Shown here one piece after another: positions 1,884 to 21,360 of a stretch of DNA of 64,000 bases. The notes below the pieces were generated by a model that was not told the origin of the DNA, did no database searches, and was given only the letters and a program-made list of their open reading frames with translations. How positions within the stretch are numbered: position 1 is the first letter of the stretch; each line of letters starts with the position of its first letter. This stretch comes from Sporomusa sp. KB1. GTDB taxonomy: Bacteria; Bacillota; Negativicutes; Sporomusales; Sporomusaceae. The translations under genes were made by a program, and so were the position numbers. The stretch spans positions 1,242,887 through 1,306,886 of the forward strand of contig NZ_VLKC01000002.1 in the NCBI RefSeq assembly GCF_007830295.1. The letters run 5' to 3'.

Positions 1884-2273
1884 TTACCGTGCGGCTGTTT
1901 GACCATGGAGTTCACCCTGCCTTATTTCCGCAATCCGATTAGCCTTGTCAACCATCACTATTTTTGGCCGATAATTTTTCTGCTTTGCTTCCGTCATCAT
2001 CGCATAAGCAATGATGATAACCACATCCCCGGGCTGCACCAGCCGGGCGGCAGCCCCATTTAAACAAACGATCCCTGAATTTCTCGGCCCCATGATTACA
2101 TAGGTTTCCAACCGGCTACCATTATTGTTATTTACAATCTGAACCTTTTCATTAGGTAAAATACCTGATGCTTCTAACAACGCCTCGTCTATCGTAATGC
2201 TGCCCATATAATTCAAGTTGGCTTCAGTGACAGTAGCACAATGAATCTTTGCCTTTAGTGAAGTCAATAACAT
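1884..2273 (-). CDS. panD: Aspartate 1-decarboxylase (pyruvoyl-dependent)
   Basis: Converts L-aspartate to beta-alanine for pantothenate synthesis. The 129-aa length is typical. The self-cleavage site YMGS is at residues 22-25; Gly-Ser cleavage would generate the pyruvoyl group on Ser25. The downstream RPG-type turn and NGAAARL stretch match the family. The start codon overlaps the panC stop (TGATG) and a GGAGG lies 7 bases upstream within panC, indicating translational coupling. Last gene of the DUF2520-panB-panC-panD operon. Confidence 0.96.
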
Positions 2274-3121
2274 CAGGTTGCCTCCAGAATGGTGTTATCA
2301 ATCAGCCTGGTTGTACCAAACCTAACTGCAAGTGCTAACAATGCTTTTGTTGATAAAGTGCTGACCGACTCCAGCTCAGGATAGTTGTAAATTTCCACAT
2401 AGTCTAGGCTAGCTAACGGTTGCTCAGTGATAACACTAACTACCGCTGTACGAATTTTCGCTATATCCCGCTCGCCATCATGAACAAGCTGCTGTGCCAG
2501 CGAAAGACTCTGTGACAAGACCATCGCCGCGCTGCGTTCCTCAGTTGATAAATATCTGTTGCGTGAGCTCATCGCTAAACCATCATCCTCGCGCACAATC
2601 GGTACCATTTCAAGCTGCACATTCATATTCAAGTCACGAACCATCTGGTCGATCACCAACACCTGCTGGGCATCCTTCTGTCCAAAAAACGCCTTATCCG
2701 GCTGTACAATGTTAAATAATTTACTAACAACAGTTGTAACGCCACGAAAGTGTCCTGGACGGGAAAGTCCGCATAACTTAGCTGTTATTTTTTCGACATG
2801 TACATAACTGGCATACCTGTTAGGATACATCTCCGCTGCAGTTGGATGAAAAATGGCATCCACGCCCACACCATTTGCTTTTTCACTATCACCTGTCAAG
2901 TCACGCGGGTAACATGCCAAGTCCTCCTGCGGACCAAATTGAGTAGGATTAACAAAGATACTAGTGATCACAATATCACACTGTGCTTTGGCCCGCCGCA
3001 TCAGCGTCAAATGGCCTTCATGCAATGCCCCCATAGTGGGAACCAAAGCGATGCTTTTCCCTTGTCTCCTGGCAGCACTTACAAAAGCACGCATTTCTTG
3101 AATAGTTTCTATTACTCGCAT
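2273..3121 (-). CDS. panC: Pantothenate synthetase (pantoate--beta-alanine ligase)
   Basis: Joins pantoate and beta-alanine in an ATP-dependent step to give pantothenate in the cytoplasm. The 282-aa protein has the nucleotidylyltransferase-fold signatures [10 protein letters not shown] (about residues 28-37), [12 protein letters not shown] and the KMSKS-like MSSRN segment. AAGGAG precedes the ATG. It sits 64 bases downstream of panB and overlaps panD by one base, so the three pan genes are clearly one transcript. Confidence 0.97.
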
Positions 3122-3185
3122 TGCCTACATTCCTCTCCTTACCACAATTCAATCAGTACAATTTTTCCAGCATAGTGTCAGCCAT

Positions 3186-3986
3186 TTAAAAGCTATACTC
3201 TGGTGCAGGAAATTGTCTTTCCTGCACCTCTTTGATATACCGTTGAACAGCAGCCCTGATTTCCTGGTGCAAATTTGCATATTTTTTAGCAAACTTCGGA
3301 AATCCTGCATGTAAACCTAATAAATCATGGCTAACCAGTACTTGTCCATCACAAGCGGCGCCGGCACCAATGCCGATCATGGGGATGGCAACCGCCTCAC
3401 ACACTCTCCTGGCCAGCCCATCAGGTATACATTCCAATACCAGCGCAAATATTCCCGCAGCCTCCAATGCCCGGGCATCATCCAACAGCGTTTGCGCGGT
3501 TTGCTCATCTCTGGCCTGTACCTTAAAGCCGCCTAATTGGTTAACTGACTGCGGCGTTAATCCCAGGTGACCTACCACCGGAATGCCTGCTGTCACAATT
3601 GCTTTCACCGTATCGGCCATGGCTGCGCCGCCTTCCAGTTTTACCGCCTGCGCGCCGCCCTCCTGCAGCAAGCGTCCCGCATTCTTGACAGCCTTTTTTA
3701 TCGATACTTGATAAGACATAAACGGCATATCGGCAACCACCATCGCACGTTTAGTACCCCGGCATACGGCTTTAATATGATGCAACATATCGTCCATCGT
3801 TACCGGCACTGTAGAGTCATAGCCCAATATGACATTTCCTAATGAATCACCTACTAAAAGCATATCCACTCCGGCTTCATCCAAGAGCTTAGCCATGGAA
3901 TAATCATACGCTGTCAGCATAGTAATTGCCCGGCCTTCACTTTTGTATTGACGCAAAACACTTGTCGTTATTTTGTTATGGCTCAT
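3186..3986 (-). CDS. panB: 3-methyl-2-oxobutanoate hydroxymethyltransferase
   Basis: Transfers a hydroxymethyl group from 5,10-methylene-H4folate to ketoisovalerate, making ketopantoate, the first committed step of pantothenate synthesis. Protein of 266 aa with the TIM-barrel motifs [20 protein letters not shown] and [15 protein letters not shown] chose the start at 3986 (MSHNK) rather than 4001. GGAGG lies 6 bases upstream, and the ATG overlaps the stop of the preceding gene as ATGA, typical of coupled translation. Confidence 0.97.
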
Positions 3987-4873
3987 ATTTCCCTCCAGCA
4001 TTTATCGCCCAGCATTTCGCCCATTGTCTCAAGCTGTGCTATTTCAAGACTGCCAATTTGTTGTACTAGCAGCAAAGTATGTAAACCTAATTGCCTGTAT
4101 AATTTCTCACTGTTATTATCCTGTCGCGCCAACGCTTGGAGATGAGCAGCCACGGTATTGGCATCCCCTCTTACAATCGGCCCGGTCAGTGCTTTAGGAG
4201 TCCCCTTATTGACCAAATTATCCACCGTTCCCTGCAAAAGCGGCAACAATGCCGTTGTCGCTTCCTCTGCAGATAGTCCGAGTTGTTGCAACAAGCTAAC
4301 CGCATTATGCACCAATACCACCAAATAATTTGACGCTATACAGGCAGCTGCGTGGTAAAGCACTCGCTGATCTGGTGGTACAAGAAAACTATCCCCGCCC
4401 ATATCCCGCACCATAGTTTTAGCAAGATTAACCGCTGCGTGGTCACCGTCTACAGCAAAATATACGCCAGACAGGCAACCGGTTTTATTTTTTATGCATG
4501 CAAATGATTGCAATGGATGCAGGGCACCAATAAAGGCCCCTTGCCGTTTGGCAGCTGCTAAGGTATCGGCTGGCAAAGCCCCGCTGGCATGATACACATA
4601 CTGTTCTTCATACCAACCGCCATTTTGTGCAATCTGCCCTGCAACATCTCCAATATACCTGTCTGATGTAGTGATAAAGACAACCTTTGCCTGTTGCGCA
4701 ATTTCTACCGGATTTACCGACCACGGTACAGCAAAACGTTCAGCCAGCATCGCAGCTGACGCCGGGCTCCTACTCGCAACTCCGGTTAATCTGTAACCGC
4801 ATTGGCACAAACTTGTCGCGAGCGCGTCTCCCACCTTACCTGCTCCAATAATCGCAAAACTTGGTTTTTCCAT
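3983..4873 (-). CDS. Rossmann-like / DUF2520 oxidoreductase, candidate ketopantoate reductase
   Basis: Protein of 296 aa with an N-terminal NAD(P)-binding motif [11 protein letters not shown] (about residues 9-19), an F420-oxidoreductase/6PGDH-like Rossmann domain, and a C-terminal helical DUF2520 domain. First gene of the pan operon, sharing an ATGA overlap with panB. PanB makes ketopantoate and PanC needs pantoate, yet no classical panE is present here. The inference is that this protein supplies ketopantoate reductase activity; a DUF2520-type enzyme (PanG) has, as I recall, been reported in Francisella. Family assignment is solid, the reaction is inferred. Confidence 0.8.
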
Positions 4874-4952: not shown

Positions 4953-5095
4953 ATAACTCTCCCTTGCTACCTCCCGTCTCAGTCCTGCGGATCTAAGCGG
5001 ATTATTTAACTATGAAAATTTGGCCACATCCATTTTCTTTGTTACTTAGTGTGACTCCTCTCGGATGCCACCTAAAAAATGATGGATGTAAAGCA
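4953..5095 (-). ncRNA. Structured 5' leader of the pan operon, candidate cis-regulatory RNA
   Basis: From the promoter the transcript would contain an 8-bp outer stem (5082-5089 with 5026-5033) enclosing a smaller hairpin at 5051-5072 with a GAGA loop. A purine-rich stretch (4960-4990) follows, then the terminator at 4922-4952. This is the architecture of a transcription-attenuating riboswitch or leader. I do not recognise the class: it is not a recognisable T-box, TPP, FMN or SAM element. The pan RNA motif known upstream of panB genes is a possibility I could not confirm. No protein-coding content is seen in the gene-free stretch 4874-5232. Confidence 0.45.
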
Positions 5096-8950: not shown

Positions 8951-9568
8951 TCACCCGCAGCTTTGTTTTCTTATCACCAGCTTGACACCATTTTCCAAGC
9001 GCTCTGATTGACAGTCAAGACGGCCACTTTCCTTTTCGGCCTCCAGCCAAGGCGGGATATGACTGCACAGCACCTCCACCTGATAGTAATTTCCCGTTAA
9101 TAATGGCTGCAATACTTGCTTGGAGGTTAACCCACTGCCATTTTGTTGAATATCCTTGAGCGACACCCTGAAACAACCCGGCCCAGTCTCAACAATAGCT
9201 GGAGCTGTAGGTTTACCTGTTTCACTCTCGCGGGCGGCCAACTCCTCCTGCACTAAAATGTATTCTAAAAAATCTGCCGGACGACCACTAAACTCCCAAA
9301 TACTAAACCCATTTTGTTCTAATTCTTTGTATAACAGACCAACTACTGTCTGCGCGACAAATACACGGCATTGGCCCAACCATTGAATTATGTCCGCTAT
9401 TTGCCGCCGTACTCCAGCCATACCGCTTGTACGGTCAAGTTGAAATGGCAAGGAGTCAGATAACCGCCACTTTCCCTGCTGACGGCGATAAACAACCACT
9501 TTTCCCGGTTCTTCCAAGGACGCTGCATTGCCTTTATCCCCAATAAACACCGCTATGTCCCGCGCCAT
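8951..9568 (-). CDS. AnfO-family nitrogenase accessory protein
   Basis: A 205-aa protein resembling the Fe-only nitrogenase accessory protein AnfO: N-terminal MARDIAVFIGDKGNAASLEE, a central FSIWEFSGRPADFLEYIL segment, and a variable C-terminus ending in a basic strand. AnfO-type genes were named for the iron-only system but also occur in clostridial Mo-nif clusters. It sits between nifB and nifV-omega with tight spacing, so it is cotranscribed. No anfG or vnf genes are in the window, arguing for a role with the Mo enzyme. Molecular function is unknown. Confidence 0.8.
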   Translation of the reverse strand: MARDIAVFIGDKGNAASLEEPGKVVVYRRQQGKWRLSDSLPFQLDRTSGMAGVRRQIADIIQWLGQCRVFVAQTVVGLLYKELEQNGFSIWEFSGRPADFLEYILVQEELAARESETGKPTAPAIVETGPGCFRVSLKDIQQNGSGLTSKQVLQPLLTGNYYQVEVLCSHIPPWLEAEKESGRLDCQSERLENGVKLVIRKQSCG

Positions 9569-9587: not shown

Positions 9588-10835
9588 CTACACGGCAGCT
9601 GCCTTTAATTCCAGCTGTTCAACAGCATAATACAGACCGCTCTCCACGGTATAGCAATATTCCACCGACATAATACCCCGCTTTAACAAACGTTTTTGGG
9701 CCTGATAACCGATCCGCATCGTCAATACAGCATCACAATCACTTAACGCTGTCATTATAGCCTCTCGTCGCTTATCTTCGCTATCACAGTCCTCATTACC
9801 AGTACAATATTTTTCCAGGCAGCGCGTTTCCACTAGCTCATACCGGCTATTATTTACCTGATAAATATCAAATTTATCGGCATGACCAAAGTGCAAATCA
9901 ACCAGTTTCCCGGCTTGGGAGGTAACCGCCACTTTGTAATAACCGGCAAGCGGCAATGGTTTACTCTCAGCTGCTTCAACCAGCGTGGTAGCAGCACAGC
10001 TTCTAAACTCACTGTTACGATCCTGACTCAAAAGACCAATGGCATCTGCCCGGCACTGGCGGCAATGGGTCATCTGTTTCAGTTCAACATTACAAGCTAC
10101 CCGCATGGCCGTAACATCGTGCATATTGGTTTGCGGCAACCCGGAAAACACACTGCCCTGTGTGGGAAGAAAGGGCATAATATTGGTCAGACTAGCACCC
10201 AATTGCTTAACTTTCTTGACCACAGTAGGTATATGCCTGTCATTCACCATTGTAATCATTACAATGTTTACCTTGACAACAACACCATGATCGGCTAAAT
10301 ACCTAATGCCTGCCTGTTGGTTGTTCAAGAGAATTTCTGCACCTTCTGCGCCAGTATAACGAGTACCTTGGTAGTTGACAGCTCCATAGATCTGAGCACC
10401 AATGACCGGTTCAGTACAGTTAACGGTCACCGTGACGTGATGTACACCAAGTTTAACTATTTCCGGGGCGTATTCGGGCAATAACAGCCCATTAGTTGAC
10501 AAACAGAATAGCACGTCAGAGTCTGCTTTTTTTATAAGCTCAATGGTCTCACGGGTTTTATTCCAATCAGCCAGGGCATCCCCCGGACCGGCAAATCCAA
10601 CCACACTCAGATTGGGGATGGCAGCTTTCACTTTTTCAAATTTTGTAAAAGCCTCTGCAGGTGACAGCACTTCACTAGTTACTCCAGGGCGGCTTTCATT
10701 AACACAATCAAACTTACGGCTGCAATAGTTGCAGCTAATATTGCACTGCGGCGCTACCGGCAGATGCATACGGGCATATTGATGTTGAGCTTCACTAGAA
10801 AAACAGGGATGTTTATCGGTAAGCACGCTCGCCAT
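9588..10835 (-). CDS. nifB: NifB (radical SAM FeMo-co core synthase) with C-terminal NifX-like domain, copy 1
   Basis: Builds the [8Fe-9S-C] NifB-co precursor of FeMo-cofactor. The 415-aa protein has the radical SAM motif CNISCNYC (C-x3-C-x2-C) near residue 31 and a second cysteine set, CRQC. The C-terminal NifX/NafY-like cofactor-binding domain carries the intact DLHFGHADKF motif. Start at 10835 chosen because AAAGGAGGTGA precedes it. It lies 31 bases downstream of nifN in the main operon. A second, similar copy sits at 18717-19964. Confidence 0.97.
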   Translation of the reverse strand: MASVLTDKHPCFSSEAQHQYARMHLPVAPQCNISCNYCSRKFDCVNESRPGVTSEVLSPAEAFTKFEKVKAAIPNLSVVGFAGPGDALADWNKTRETIELIKKADSDVLFCLSTNGLLLPEYAPEIVKLGVHHVTVTVNCTEPVIGAQIYGAVNYQGTRYTGAEGAEILLNNQQAGIRYLADHGVVVKVNIVMITMVNDRHIPTVVKKVKQLGASLTNIMPFLPTQGSVFSGLPQTNMHDVTAMRVACNVELKQMTHCRQCRADAIGLLSQDRNSEFRSCAATTLVEAAESKPLPLAGYYKVAVTSQAGKLVDLHFGHADKFDIYQVNNSRYELVETRCLEKYCTGNEDCDSEDKRREAIMTALSDCDAVLTMRIGYQAQKRLLKRGIMSVEYCYTVESGLYYAVEQLELKAAAV

Positions 10836-10866
10836 AGAGCGGTCACCTCCTTTCTTCAAGTAAGGG

Positions 10867-17391: not shown

Positions 17392-18393
<1,002 letters not shown>

Positions 18394-18473
18394 TTATTTG
18401 TATGGAAGATAATCACCCCCCTTCCTGATCCTGCTTTTAACAAAGTTAACCTTTTGGTTGGATAACAAGACAA

Positions 18474-18628
18474 GGCTTACCACAGTCAATAATTGTGGTA
18501 AGCCTCATTGCTTGTTAAAACTATTAAACTATCTGCAGAAATTTACGCTGCCATAAAAACATAAAAAGCTATAAGCAGAATTCTCTACTTCATAGCTTCA
18601 TCGCTGAAAACCAATATCTATTAAACAC
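18474..18628 (-). ncRNA. nifH leader RNA with two terminator-like hairpins
   Basis: Downstream of the promoter the leader holds hairpin 1 (18566-18598: AAGCTAT and ATAGCTT outer stem, inner stem around a GAAT loop), followed by TTTTTATGTTTTT like an intrinsic terminator. Hairpin 2 follows (18474-18504, an 11-bp stem starting GGCTTACC). The whole block is repeated upstream of the second nifB at 20032-20184, with hairpin 1, its U-rich tail, a TTTCTGCAGA box and hairpin 2 all conserved. The arrangement suggests transcription attenuation or antitermination of nif genes. The rest of the stretch 18220-18473 shows only the hairpin at 18359-18391. Confidence 0.6.
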
Positions 18629-18657
18629 ACTATACCATAGATGCACCCCATCCGCAA
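18629..18657 (-). promoter_or_regulatory. nifH operon promoter
   Basis: On the minus strand TTGCGG (18652-18657) and TATAGT (18629-18634) are 17 bases apart. The same pair with the same spacing precedes the second nifB. It looks like a housekeeping-sigma promoter; no -24/-12 sigma-54 element is seen here, so control may lie in the leader. Confidence 0.6.
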
Positions 18658-18716
18658 CACTTCCGAATAATGTTCGAAAATTAAGTTTTCTGCATGCAAC
18701 AGTAGCTTCCAAACCT

Positions 18717-19964
18717 TTATCTGGCAGCTTCCTTTAATTCAAGTTGTTCGACGGCATAATAAAGCCCACTTCCCACGGTATAGCAATATTCCACCGACAT
18801 GATACCCCGCTTCAACAAACGTTTTTGCGCCTGATAGCTAATTCGCATAGTCAATACAGCATCACAATCCCGCAGTGCCGCCAGCGTGGACTCCCACCGC
18901 TTCTCTTTGGCATCACAGTCCTCATCGCTAATACAATTTTCCTTCAAGCTGCGCGTTTCCATTAGCTCATACCGGCTATTATTTACCTGATAAATATAGA
19001 ATTCCTTGGCTTGGCCGAAGTTCAAATCAACCATTTTGCCAAATTTGGTAGTAACCGCTACCTTGTAATGACCAACAAACGGCAATGCTTTGCGTTCAAC
19101 CAATTCAACCGGAGTGGCAGCTACACAATTTCTAAACTCACTGTTACGATCCTTAGCTAGAAGACCAATGGCATCTGCCCGGCACTGGCGGCAATGGGTC
19201 ATCTGCTTCAGTTCATCGTTGCAAGCCACTCGCATGGCCATAACATCGCGCATATTGGTTTGCGGCAGCCCGGAAAATACACTACCCGGCGTGGGAATGA
19301 AAGGCATAATATTGGTAAGGCAAGCACCTAATTGCTTGACTTTTTTGACAACAGCAGGCATATGCCAATCATTAACCATTTTAATCATTACAAGATTTAC
19401 TTTGACAGCAACGCCATGCCCCGCTAAGTACATTATTCCTTCCTGCTGGTTATTCAAAAGAATCTCTGCACCTTCTGCCCCGACATAACGAGTACCTTGG
19501 TAATTAACAGCGCCATAAATCTGTGCACCAACAATTGGGTCAGTACAATTAACAGTTACCGTGACGTGACGAACACCAAGTTTGACTATTTCCGGAGCGT
19601 ATTCGGGCAGCAGCAGGCCATTGGTTGACAGGCAAAATAGCATGCCCGGGTCTTTTTTCTTAATAAGCTCAATAGTCTCACGGGTTTCATTCCAATCAGC
19701 CAGAGCATCCCCCGGACCAGCAATCCCAATCACACTAAGATTGGGGATAGCAGCTTTCACCTGTTCAAATTTGGCAAACGCATCTGCAGGTGACAACAAT
19801 TCACTAGTTACTCCAGGGTGGCTTTCATTAACACAATCAAACTTGCGACTACAATAGTTGCAGCTGATATTGCACCGTGGCGCTACTGGCAGATGCATGC
19901 GTGCATATTGATCCTGGGCTTGACTGGAAAAGCAGGGGTGTTTATCGGTAAGCATGCGCGTCAT
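18717..19964 (-). CDS. nifB: NifB with NifX-like domain, copy 2 (diverged motif)
   Basis: A second 415-aa NifB, about 85% identical by eye to copy 1 over its whole length. The radical SAM motif CNISCNYC and the CRQC cysteines are intact. The NifX-like domain has diverged: the HFGH motif of copy 1 reads NFGQ here (DLNFGQAKEF), losing both histidines that would contact cofactor. The start is taken at ATG 19964 by alignment with copy 1; the ribosome binding site is weakened (AGGAAG instead of AGGAGG). It stands alone with its own promoter and leader. Role alongside copy 1 unknown. Confidence 0.93.
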   Translation of the reverse strand: MTRMLTDKHPCFSSQAQDQYARMHLPVAPRCNISCNYCSRKFDCVNESHPGVTSELLSPADAFAKFEQVKAAIPNLSVIGIAGPGDALADWNETRETIELIKKKDPGMLFCLSTNGLLLPEYAPEIVKLGVRHVTVTVNCTDPIVGAQIYGAVNYQGTRYVGAEGAEILLNNQQEGIMYLAGHGVAVKVNLVMIKMVNDWHMPAVVKKVKQLGACLTNIMPFIPTPGSVFSGLPQTNMRDVMAMRVACNDELKQMTHCRQCRADAIGLLAKDRNSEFRNCVAATPVELVERKALPFVGHYKVAVTTKFGKMVDLNFGQAKEFYIYQVNNSRYELMETRSLKENCISDEDCDAKEKRWESTLAALRDCDAVLTMRISYQAQKRLLKRGIMSVEYCYTVGSGLYYAVEQLELKEAAR

Positions 19965-20031
19965 AAAACGGGCCACTTCCTTTCTCTAAGTAGGCTTATA
20001 ATAAGAAAATTACATTTACACTCCATTAAAA

Positions 20032-20184
20032 GGCTTACCCCAGTAACTAACCGTGGTCAGCCTCATTACTTACTAAAAATAGTAAACTGTCTGCAGAAAA
20101 TACTCTCCATAAAAACATAAAAAGCTATGAGCAGAATTCTCTACTCAATAGCTTCATCGCTAAAATTCATTATCTTTTGAATTA
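20032..20184 (-). ncRNA. nifB copy-2 leader RNA, homologous to nifH leader
   Basis: Hairpin 1 at 20122-20154 and hairpin 2 at 20032-20062 match the nifH leader. In hairpin 1 the A-U pair of the nifH copy is a G-C pair here (inner stem begins GAGTAGA and ends TCTGCTC), a compensatory change supporting an RNA structure. The U-rich tail after hairpin 1 and the CTGCAGA box are conserved. Hairpin 2 has one mismatch more than in the nifH copy. No other content is seen in the gene-free stretch 19965-20368 apart from the promoter. Confidence 0.6.
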
Positions 20185-20213
20185 ACTATACCATAGCTAT
20201 AAGTTACCCGCAA
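20185..20213 (-). promoter_or_regulatory. Promoter of nifB copy 2
   Basis: TTGCGG (20208-20213) and TATAGT (20185-20190) on the minus strand with 17-base spacing, identical in both boxes to the nifH promoter; the final CTATGG of the spacer before TATAGT is also shared. Confidence 0.6.
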
Positions 20214-20560: not shown

Positions 20561-20602
20561 AAGAAGCTTAATGGACTCTCCTGTCCATTAAGCTTCTTTT
20601 AC
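20559..20602. terminator. Bidirectional terminator
   Basis: A 16-bp perfect stem (AAGAAGCTTAATGGAC and its complement, 20561-20598) with a 6-base loop, flanked by A and T runs. It serves both the small plus-strand gene and the minus-strand tcdA gene. Confidence 0.9.
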
Positions 20603-21360
20603 ATTCTATCAAAAACTATGTCTTTTACTACTTCCCCCGCAATAATGAGGCCAGCCACTGACGGTACAAAAGCAATACTGCCGGGAATTTGGTGGCGCGA
20701 TGTACATTTGCGCGTTGTTCCCTGCGGACAAATGCAGCCTTTGCTGCAGCTAGAACTCGCCGTCTCCACCGGGGTAAGCGGCACCTCTTTTGAATAGACT
20801 ACCTTAAGCGAAGTGATGCCCCGCTTTCTTAGCTCCTGACGCATCACCTTGGCCAACGGACACACTGAAGTACGGAAAATATCAGTCACCTCAAACTGTG
20901 TTGGGTCCAACTTATTGCCAGCCCCCATGGAGGAGATCACCGGAATATTTTTAGCTTTGGCCCTGACAACAAGATCAAGCTTACCGGTAACGGTATCAAT
21001 GGCATCTACGATATACGTATAATCGTCAGCAAGCAGTTTGTCTGCCGTATCTGGCAAATAAAATTCCTGAAAAACAGTGACTTCTGCCTTGGGATTTATC
21101 TCGAGAATACGTTCCCTCATAACCTCAACCTTAGGCTTCCCGATCGTTTTTCTAGTAGCATGCAGCTGCCGGTTAATATTAGTCAGGCAAATACAATCAT
21201 CATCCACCAGCACAAACTTACCTACACCTGAGCGCACCAGACCTTCCACAACATATGTCCCAACCCCGCCGATACCAAAAACAGCCACCTTGCTTTTTGC
21301 TAATTTACTCAGGCCTTCTGTGCCGATTAATAATTCTGTCCGGGAAAATTCATGCAGCAT
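20599..21360 (-). CDS. tcdA: tRNA threonylcarbamoyladenosine dehydratase (ThiF/MoeB family)
   Basis: E1-like ATP-dependent enzyme that cyclises t6A to ct6A at position 37 of ANN-decoding tRNAs. The 253-aa protein has the nucleotide-binding GIGGVGTYVVEGLVRSG motif (about residues 29-45), the VDDDCICLTNINRQ segment, and a C-terminal cysteine-containing stretch CSKGCICPQG. GGGTGA precedes the ATG. It stands alone; there is no sulfur-carrier partner nearby, which fits TcdA better than a ThiF/MoeB role. Confidence 0.9.
   Translation of the reverse strand: MLHEFSRTELLIGTEGLSKLAKSKVAVFGIGGVGTYVVEGLVRSGVGKFVLVDDDCICLTNINRQLHATRKTIGKPKVEVMRERILEINPKAEVTVFQEFYLPDTADKLLADDYTYIVDAIDTVTGKLDLVVRAKAKNIPVISSMGAGNKLDPTQFEVTDIFRTSVCPLAKVMRQELRKRGITSLKVVYSKEVPLTPVETASSSCSKGCICPQGTTRKCTSRHQIPGSIAFVPSVAGLIIAGEVVKDIVFDRM

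Follow-up and report, generated by a model that had tools for sequence, protein, structure and literature searches.

Tandem terminators with putative ANTAR hexaloops in the leaders of nifH and a second nifB of Sporomusa sp. KB1

Here we describe two homologous leaders in Sporomusa sp. KB1, one ahead of nifH and the other ahead of a second nifB (nifB2), which, judging from their sequence and predicted pairing within a stretch of 64,000 nucleotides (the window), are most likely ANTAR antitermination leaders. In the arrangement that we propose, each leader would consist of a sigma-70-type promoter followed by two terminators in series, each with a hexaloop hairpin before it that is incompatible with it. 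We hold it to be highly probable that these serial terminators are relieved by a phosphorylated receiver-ANTAR response regulator that binds the hexaloops. Without a signal, RNA polymerase would halt at either terminator. With the signal, which would be nitrogen starvation, a PAS-HisKA_2 histidine kinase would phosphorylate the neighbouring receiver-ANTAR response regulator, and the phosphorylated regulator would then bind the G4 hexaloop and hold the antiterminator, so that transcription could continue beyond the terminators into nifB2 and the nifH operon. The binding, the phosphorylation, the readthrough, and the nitrogen-starvation signal are all steps that we infer. The protein family is a known one; what looks unusual is that each stop signal comes with a single recognition loop rather than a pair.

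Architecture of the two leaders

All features of the leaders lie on the minus strand (Table 1), the nifH leader at 18657-18470 and the nifB2 leader at 20213-20030. The original prediction of paired homologous promoter-leaders before nifH and the second nifB was borne out, as the two share 85% mean column identity in a pairwise alignment and carry an identical promoter, TTGCGG-17-TATAGT. The second nifB is 81% identical to the nifB of the operon (9588-10859), with both above the TIGR01290 (NifB) cut-off, and the NifH of the window has 100% identity with that of S. ovata and 98% with that of S. silvacetica. Within the nif cluster, whose structural genes are nifHDK by eye, there is also an AnfO-family protein (PF09582, E=2e-61) at 8951-9568 on the minus strand. 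The cluster is adjoined by a ThiF/TcdA-like ORF (by eye) at 20599-21360 on the same strand, a homologue of which also neighbours the leader in S. ovata, S. silvacetica, and one further genome (G008).

Table 1. Positions in the window of the leader features and of the genes behind them
Feature	Position	Strand	Basis and remarks
-35 box TTGCGG, nifH leader	18652-18657	-	sequence; TTGC-type box in like position in many relatives (by eye)
-10 box TATAGT, nifH leader	18629-18634	-	17-nt spacer
nifH module 1, putative antiterminator hexaloop AGC[GAUGAA]GCU	18594-18605	-	pairing, relatives; G4, loop position 1 is G
nifH terminator 1 stem-loop	18565-18599	-	fold, family covariation; 5′ arm overlaps hexaloop
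Split U-tract UUUUUAUGUUUUU, terminator 1 of nifH leader	18555-18567	-	sequence
nifH module 2 hexaloop AAGC[AAUGAG]GCUU	18500-18513	-	exact AGCAANGRRGCUY match
nifH terminator 2 stem-loop	18470-18508	-	fold
nifH, which opens the nif operon behind this leader	17392-18219	-	Pfam Fer4_NifH E=5.8e-125
-35 box TTGCGG, nifB2 leader	20208-20213	-	sequence
-10 box TATAGT, nifB2 leader	20185-20190	-	sequence
nifB2 module 1 hexaloop AGC[GAUGAA]GCU	20150-20161	-	sequence, alignment of leaders
nifB2 terminator 1 stem-loop	20121-20155	-	fold
nifB2 module 2 box, degenerate (AAGTAATGAGGCT)	20059-20071	-	sequence
nifB2 terminator 2 stem-loop, internal mismatches	20030-20064	-	fold
Second nifB, 419 aa	18717-19976	-	above TIGR01290 cut-off

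Hairpin 1 folds at -15.4 kcal/mol in the nifH leader and at -17.6 in the nifB2 leader (z -3.0 and -3.3 against shuffles), and hairpin 2 at -17.2 and -15.9 kcal/mol, respectively (z -5.1 and -2.9). The self-pairing sequence AGCGATGAAGCT, as AGC[GAUGAA]GCU, lies at the foot of hairpin 1 on the 5′ side, and the bases that make up the 3′ arm of this hexaloop also serve in the 5′ arm of that hairpin; since these bases are shared, the two structures are mutually exclusive. The shared arm supports the earlier suggestion that AGCGATGAAGCT may be an antiterminator competing with the 5′ arm of hairpin 1, and the overlap between box and terminator is likewise consistent with the predicted control through transcription attenuation. 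A second box, AAGCAATGAGGCTT, which had escaped the original prediction, pairs as AAGC[AAUGAG]GCUU, is placed likewise before hairpin 2 of the nifH leader, and overlaps that hairpin. In the nifB2 leader the second box is degenerate, and it is gone from the nifB2 copy of S. ovata (L006); the second module of the nifB2 leader is decaying. Pairing, fold, and alignment show a hexaloop hairpin and an intrinsic terminator sharing sequence, in the 3′ arm of the former and the 5′ arm of the latter, which is the arrangement by which an ANTAR target RNA is recognised. Folded alone, the 18-nt piece with box 1 (final base omitted) takes another, weak fold (-1.8 kcal/mol, z -0.8) and the 21-nt piece with box 2 forms a four-pair hexaloop (-2.2 kcal/mol, z -0.9); neither piece does better than its shuffles, and therefore the antiterminator would need a ligand.

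According to Ramesh et al. 2012 (PMC3369931), ANTAR proteins bind a hexaloop formed by the box AGCAANGRRGCUY, which extends into the 5′ part of the eut terminators. The module 2 box of the nifH leader is an exact match, and the module 1 box departs from it by two changes, G for A at loop position 1 and A for Y at the last base; the module 1 copy of one related locus (L012) reads AGCAATGAAGCTA. By direct reading, G4 is present in all four loops of the window, and loop position 1 is A in both module 2 loops and G in both module 1 loops. The leaders had been put forward as an undescribed RNA element. That label has to be given up, because the box agrees with the ANTAR consensus and Ramesh et al. 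(PMC3369931) had already predicted ANTAR targets at nitrogenase genes; box, terminator overlap, and nitrogen-gene context are together those of ANTAR target RNAs in that account. In the literature searched, the string AGCAANGRRGCUY was found only in Ramesh et al., and the matches listed for ANTAR, nif, Sporomusa, Pelosinus, and Negativicutes, from a search with subscription literature largely outside its scope, held no study of these leaders.

An Rfam search of the whole window at the gathering score returned only an SSU rRNA and a pan match, with no family at the leaders; at loose E-values nothing significant turned up there, and we discounted the top match, to an Enterococcus sRNA, whose 24.5 bits (E=0.043) fall short of the cut-off of 123. 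The pan motif (RF01749) lies at 4970-5074 on the minus strand, upstream of ORFs at 1884-4001 that are, by eye, pantothenate synthesis genes.

Past terminator 2 and roughly 200 bases upstream of nifH there is a Shine-Dalgarno-like AGGAAGGGGGG at 18416-18426, which in relatives is AAGGAGGTG (L024, L027, L029, L033; by eye). No clear ORF is found at AGGAAGGGGGG, and it may stabilise the 5′ end of the mRNA or mark a leader peptide. A third hairpin, GGCTTCACG...CGTGAAGCC at 18359-18391 on the minus strand, lies between terminator 2 and nifH, and is also present at L007/L012. The CTGCAGA box, which had been counted as a part of the element, is present in close Sporomusa copies but absent from L012 and L013, and we dropped it because it is not conserved.

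Conservation and covariation among relatives

The leaders were compared with the upstream regions of nifH from the best 80 of 374 NifH relatives. Under a strict test, in which a module is a box with a pairing 3′ arm and a T-rich tail, two modules were found in 17 of the 80 regions and at least one in 21, against means of 0 and 0.06 in 100 dinucleotide shuffles, and 0 and 2 on the antisense strand. Five looser loci bring the tandem box-terminator modules upstream of nifH to 22 of these best 80: three identified through pattern and fold (L025, L033, L046), one whose second module is a weak model match (L014, E=0.034), and one recognised by eye (L041), which the search pattern missed and whose loops, GUAGAA and GCUGAC, both have G1 and G4. 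The 22 range over Sporomusa, Pelosinus, Lucifera, Propionispora, several MAGs, a locus labelled Peptococcaceae (L035), and one labelled Gracilibacter (L049). No tandem was seen in the other 58 of the 80, which include the methanogen loci and most of the clostridial ones; some of these contigs end near nifH, only some 260-270 bases are available upstream at L034 (with one model match) and L052, and L043, which has one module and an ANTAR protein, is counted as without a tandem. By box positions, the serial terminators of a leader are spaced 51 to 182 nt apart.

In all, 46 modules were collected. Since the search pattern demanded G4, its presence in 46 of 46 modules is no test of that base. Loop position 1 is A in 36 of the 46 and G in 10, under a pattern that admitted only A or G, and loop-base counts are biased by the pattern that found the modules. 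Split U-tracts (UUUUUAUGUUUUU, UUUUGUGUUUU) are frequent, occurring by a crude pattern in 20 of the 46 modules, and could slow release. A degenerate CAAGTTAAT-like box ends approximately 7-11 nt before many hexaloops (L012, L013, L027-L031, L046, and the module before amtB in the KB1 genome; by eye); for module 1 this is near the expected transcription start, yet the box is also found at module 2 of L012.

The original prediction had pointed to an A-U pair in hairpin 1 that is a G-C pair in the other leader of the window. The change is real (AAGUAG/CUGCUU versus GAGUAG/CUGCUC), but one such compensated pair, in a comparison of just two copies, carries little weight by itself, and a wider alignment is stronger. 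Six of the collected modules (both of L035, both of L049, that of L043, and module 2 of L012) were omitted before alignment, and alignment A2 omits two more, module 2 of the nifB2 leader of the window and module 2 of L046. Over 36 distinct modules, the terminator stem has 86.9% of its cells paired versus 69.6% when shuffled, 103 cells changed on both sides versus 37.6, and a covariation score of 0.581 versus 0.262, each value being reached in 0 of 500 shuffles; 11 of the 14 pairs change on both sides, a count that 43 of 500 shuffles also reach. This covariation of the terminator stem across the wider alignment argues for selection on RNA structure, as had been claimed, and the homologous leaders with covariation on which the original prediction had staked itself are found upstream of nifH in relatives. 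The antiterminator stem has 93.1% of its cells paired in register versus at most 46.5% when slid; its two inner pairs are invariant and therefore uninformative, and the third pair has G-C for A-U in one sequence (L046).

A model of the module (R1), built from 38 modules, matched in 12 of 12 genomes of the family at E<=0.05 and, at E<=5e-4, in 17 of the 28 searched from the order. Because plain terminators and reverse strands score with R1 too, these tallies are not used as evidence. With the leader itself as a DNA query, 4 of the 12 family genomes gave a match.

A candidate regulator and its regulon

The KB1 genome has a single ANTAR gene, which encodes a receiver-ANTAR response regulator (Pfam Response_reg 5.6e-26, ANTAR 1.8e-20) and adjoins a HisKA_2 histidine kinase with a weak PAS match just below the cut-off. 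This kinase-ANTAR pair lies about 1.9 Mb from nif. EutB has no match in the KB1 genome, and therefore the ANTAR protein is unlikely to be an ethanolamine regulator. The best solved relatives of the protein are 1s8n (a putative antiterminator, E=8e-56) and 6wsh (E=8e-44), the latter of which we take to be EutV. Walshe et al. 2022 (PMC8934654) named 11 RNA-contact residues of EutV. When the KB1 protein is aligned with 6wsh, 7 of these 11 are identical, among them the G4-holding Arg142, Lys149, Glu160, and Tyr164, plus the Met172 plug; of the other four, Lys147 is replaced by Arg, and Arg168, Asn173, and Arg177 are changed. The numbering carries an offset of 2, deduced from the match of all 11 residue types.

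Among the 50 genomes searched (of the 80 loci), 37 have an ANTAR protein, namely 22 of the 22 with tandem leaders versus 15 of the 28 without (Fisher p=1.6e-4, relatedness ignored), a co-occurrence that is confounded by relatedness. A motif search of 22 ANTAR loci, taken from KB1 itself and from 21 of the 22 genomes with a tandem leader, recognised the kinase-ANTAR pair in 20, and in 18 of those 20 a motif that we take to be GroES-like lies downstream of the pair.

In the KB1 genome, R1 has 11 matches at E<=0.05, three of them within the nif leaders. Two tandem matches precede a PucR-type regulator (PF07905), one precedes amtB (TIGR00836), one a corrinoid protein (TIGR02370), and one a GntR-type regulator (by eye), and the three further matches resemble ordinary terminators or a reverse-strand echo. 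The modules before amtB and the PucR-type gene are probably read by the same ANTAR regulator. The corrinoid-protein and GntR-type matches are less certain, since single matches may be ordinary terminators, given what else R1 scores. The amtB module, AGGC[AAUGAA]GCCU, is another compensated stem, and is followed by GGAC[AAUGGC]GUCC and then by a second terminator-like hairpin (by eye). In relatives, modules are found before homocitrate synthase and, with translations read by eye, before nifB, an amino-acid-type transporter protein, and alanine dehydrogenase; the module at G003:C54, from a genome treated as one with G015, precedes an EutB gene. For nif control in Sporomusa there are now a candidate regulator gene, a candidate kinase, and a small candidate regulon; among the literature matches listed, no mechanism of nif control was seen for Sporomusa, Pelosinus, or Negativicutes.

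The missing P1 hairpin, other readings, and known systems

The studied ANTAR leaders, eut (PMC3369931) and nas (PMC3369936), are described as needing a P1 hairpin a few bases ahead of the antiterminator hairpin, and lengthening the linker by 20 nt abolished the action of EutV in vitro (PMC8934654). In 40 modules from 20 loci, a P1 with an AnnGnn loop and a short linker was found 4 times versus 5.2 in shuffles, and a P1 with only G4 required was found 14 times versus 13.6; the search used four loop patterns, two stem lengths, and mononucleotide shuffles, and the lowest of the eight shuffle fractions was 0.13. As a positive control, the box pattern gave 3 sites in 13 regions around eutB genes. 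The control is small, because it comprises one full canonical site with P1, P2, and terminator (L228), a partial one with P1 and P2 and the terminator unconfirmed (L234), and one with a doubtful P1 about 20 nt away (L230). These eut regions replaced an earlier dual-hexaloop scan around ANTAR genes, whose eight matches were judged to be chance; the CAAGTTAAT-like box, considered as a P1 remnant, gave no consistent stem. Module 1 is often so near the promoter that there would be little room for a P1. No P1 was found, and thus each leader has one hexaloop per terminator and two terminators in series.

Counting against the ANTAR reading are the P1 that was not found, though EutV and NasR need one, the G at loop position 1 in module 1 of both window leaders, and the kinase-regulator pair that is not near nif in the KB1 genome. 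As for loop position 1, the EutV crystal has no specific contact with A1 (PMC8934654), and changing A1 reduced eutP induction (PMC3369931). Walshe et al. 2022 (PMC8934654) redefined the minimal ANTAR binding motif as a single hexaloop, yet with both hexaloops needed during transcription, and proposed P1 as a recruitment site from which the dimer then passes to P2. We suggest that in the Sporomusa leaders the first hexaloop may do both jobs, recruitment and antitermination. We tentatively put forward a single-hexaloop ANTAR antiterminator from which P1 has been dropped, where loop 1 would relieve terminator 1 and then recruit the ANTAR dimer for loop 2. If this is true, transcription would have to leak past two gates in series, with the two leak rates multiplied, and nitrogenase, which is costly, could be kept under tight control although its promoter is constitutive. 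Whether ANTAR proteins need one or both hexaloops is a question that these leaders touch on through their missing P1: they suggest either that a single loop is enough for each terminator or that the preceding module provides the P1.

That P1 was not found, and that ANTAR binding is a step that we infer, would also suit a switch driven by some other RNA-binding antiterminator, or by a ligand-binding riboswitch, instead of an ANTAR protein, as would the degenerate CAAGTTAAT-like box upstream of many hexaloops; however, the box fits the ANTAR consensus, ANTAR proteins occur in all 22 tandem-leader genomes, and a riboswitch has no Rfam family at the gathering score to speak for it at the leaders, which makes this reading unlikely. 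Another reading is that duplication has preserved what are simply constitutive terminators, or processing sites, with the box as a by-product of terminator sequence. The terminators are indeed strong on their own, the second module of nifB2 is decaying, and reverse-strand matches show that stems alone score with R1. Yet AGCAA lies largely outside the terminator stem and is conserved across species whose terminators differ, and although the modules were chosen by an AGCAA pattern, shuffles and the antisense strand were without the combination. Constitutive terminators before nifH would, moreover, only silence nifH, and we regard this explanation as very unlikely. The slimmest chance belongs to control of nif by sigma-54 and a NifA-type activator with the leader secondary, for rpoN is present in the genome and 42 NifA-model matches fall below the cut-off (mostly other enhancer-binding proteins by reading), but no NifA stands above the curated cut-off, neither leader has a -24/-12 match at up to 2 mismatches (the absence of a sigma-54 site had been predicted correctly), and the sigma-70-like promoter recurs in relatives.

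Read as ANTAR antitermination leaders, the Sporomusa leaders resemble several known systems. The GnfK/GnfR pair of Geobacter sulfurreducens also places nif genes under two-component control; GnfR is reportedly an ANTAR antiterminator in nif control, and the pair is said to be part of a wider cascade. GnfK and GnfR are annotated as nitrogen fixation kinase and regulator (PMC7962754), and the ANTAR targets of Geobacter have been linked to nitrogen use (PMC8164766). ANTAR targets have likewise been predicted for the nitrogenase genes of Pelobacter carbinolicus and, with 13 sites in six transcription units, for nitrogen genes of Desulfotomaculum acetoxidans (PMC3369931); these were identified with a dual-hairpin model, in other lineages, and the comparison is by description only. 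NasR/nasF of Klebsiella and AmiR/amiE of Pseudomonas share ANTAR antitermination of a leader terminator, but take their signal through a NIT domain and an AmiC partner, respectively, with P1 essential (PMC3369936). In the eut system of Enterococcus faecalis (EutV/EutW; PMC3369931; PMC8934654), an AGCAANGRRGCUY hexaloop also overlaps the 5′ arm of the terminator, a kinase is joined with a receiver-ANTAR regulator, and there are several terminators per regulon. There, however, P1 and P2 stand before one terminator, 5-12 nt apart in E. faecalis, whereas in Sporomusa each terminator has a single hexaloop, the terminators come two in a row, and the genes behind them are nif genes.
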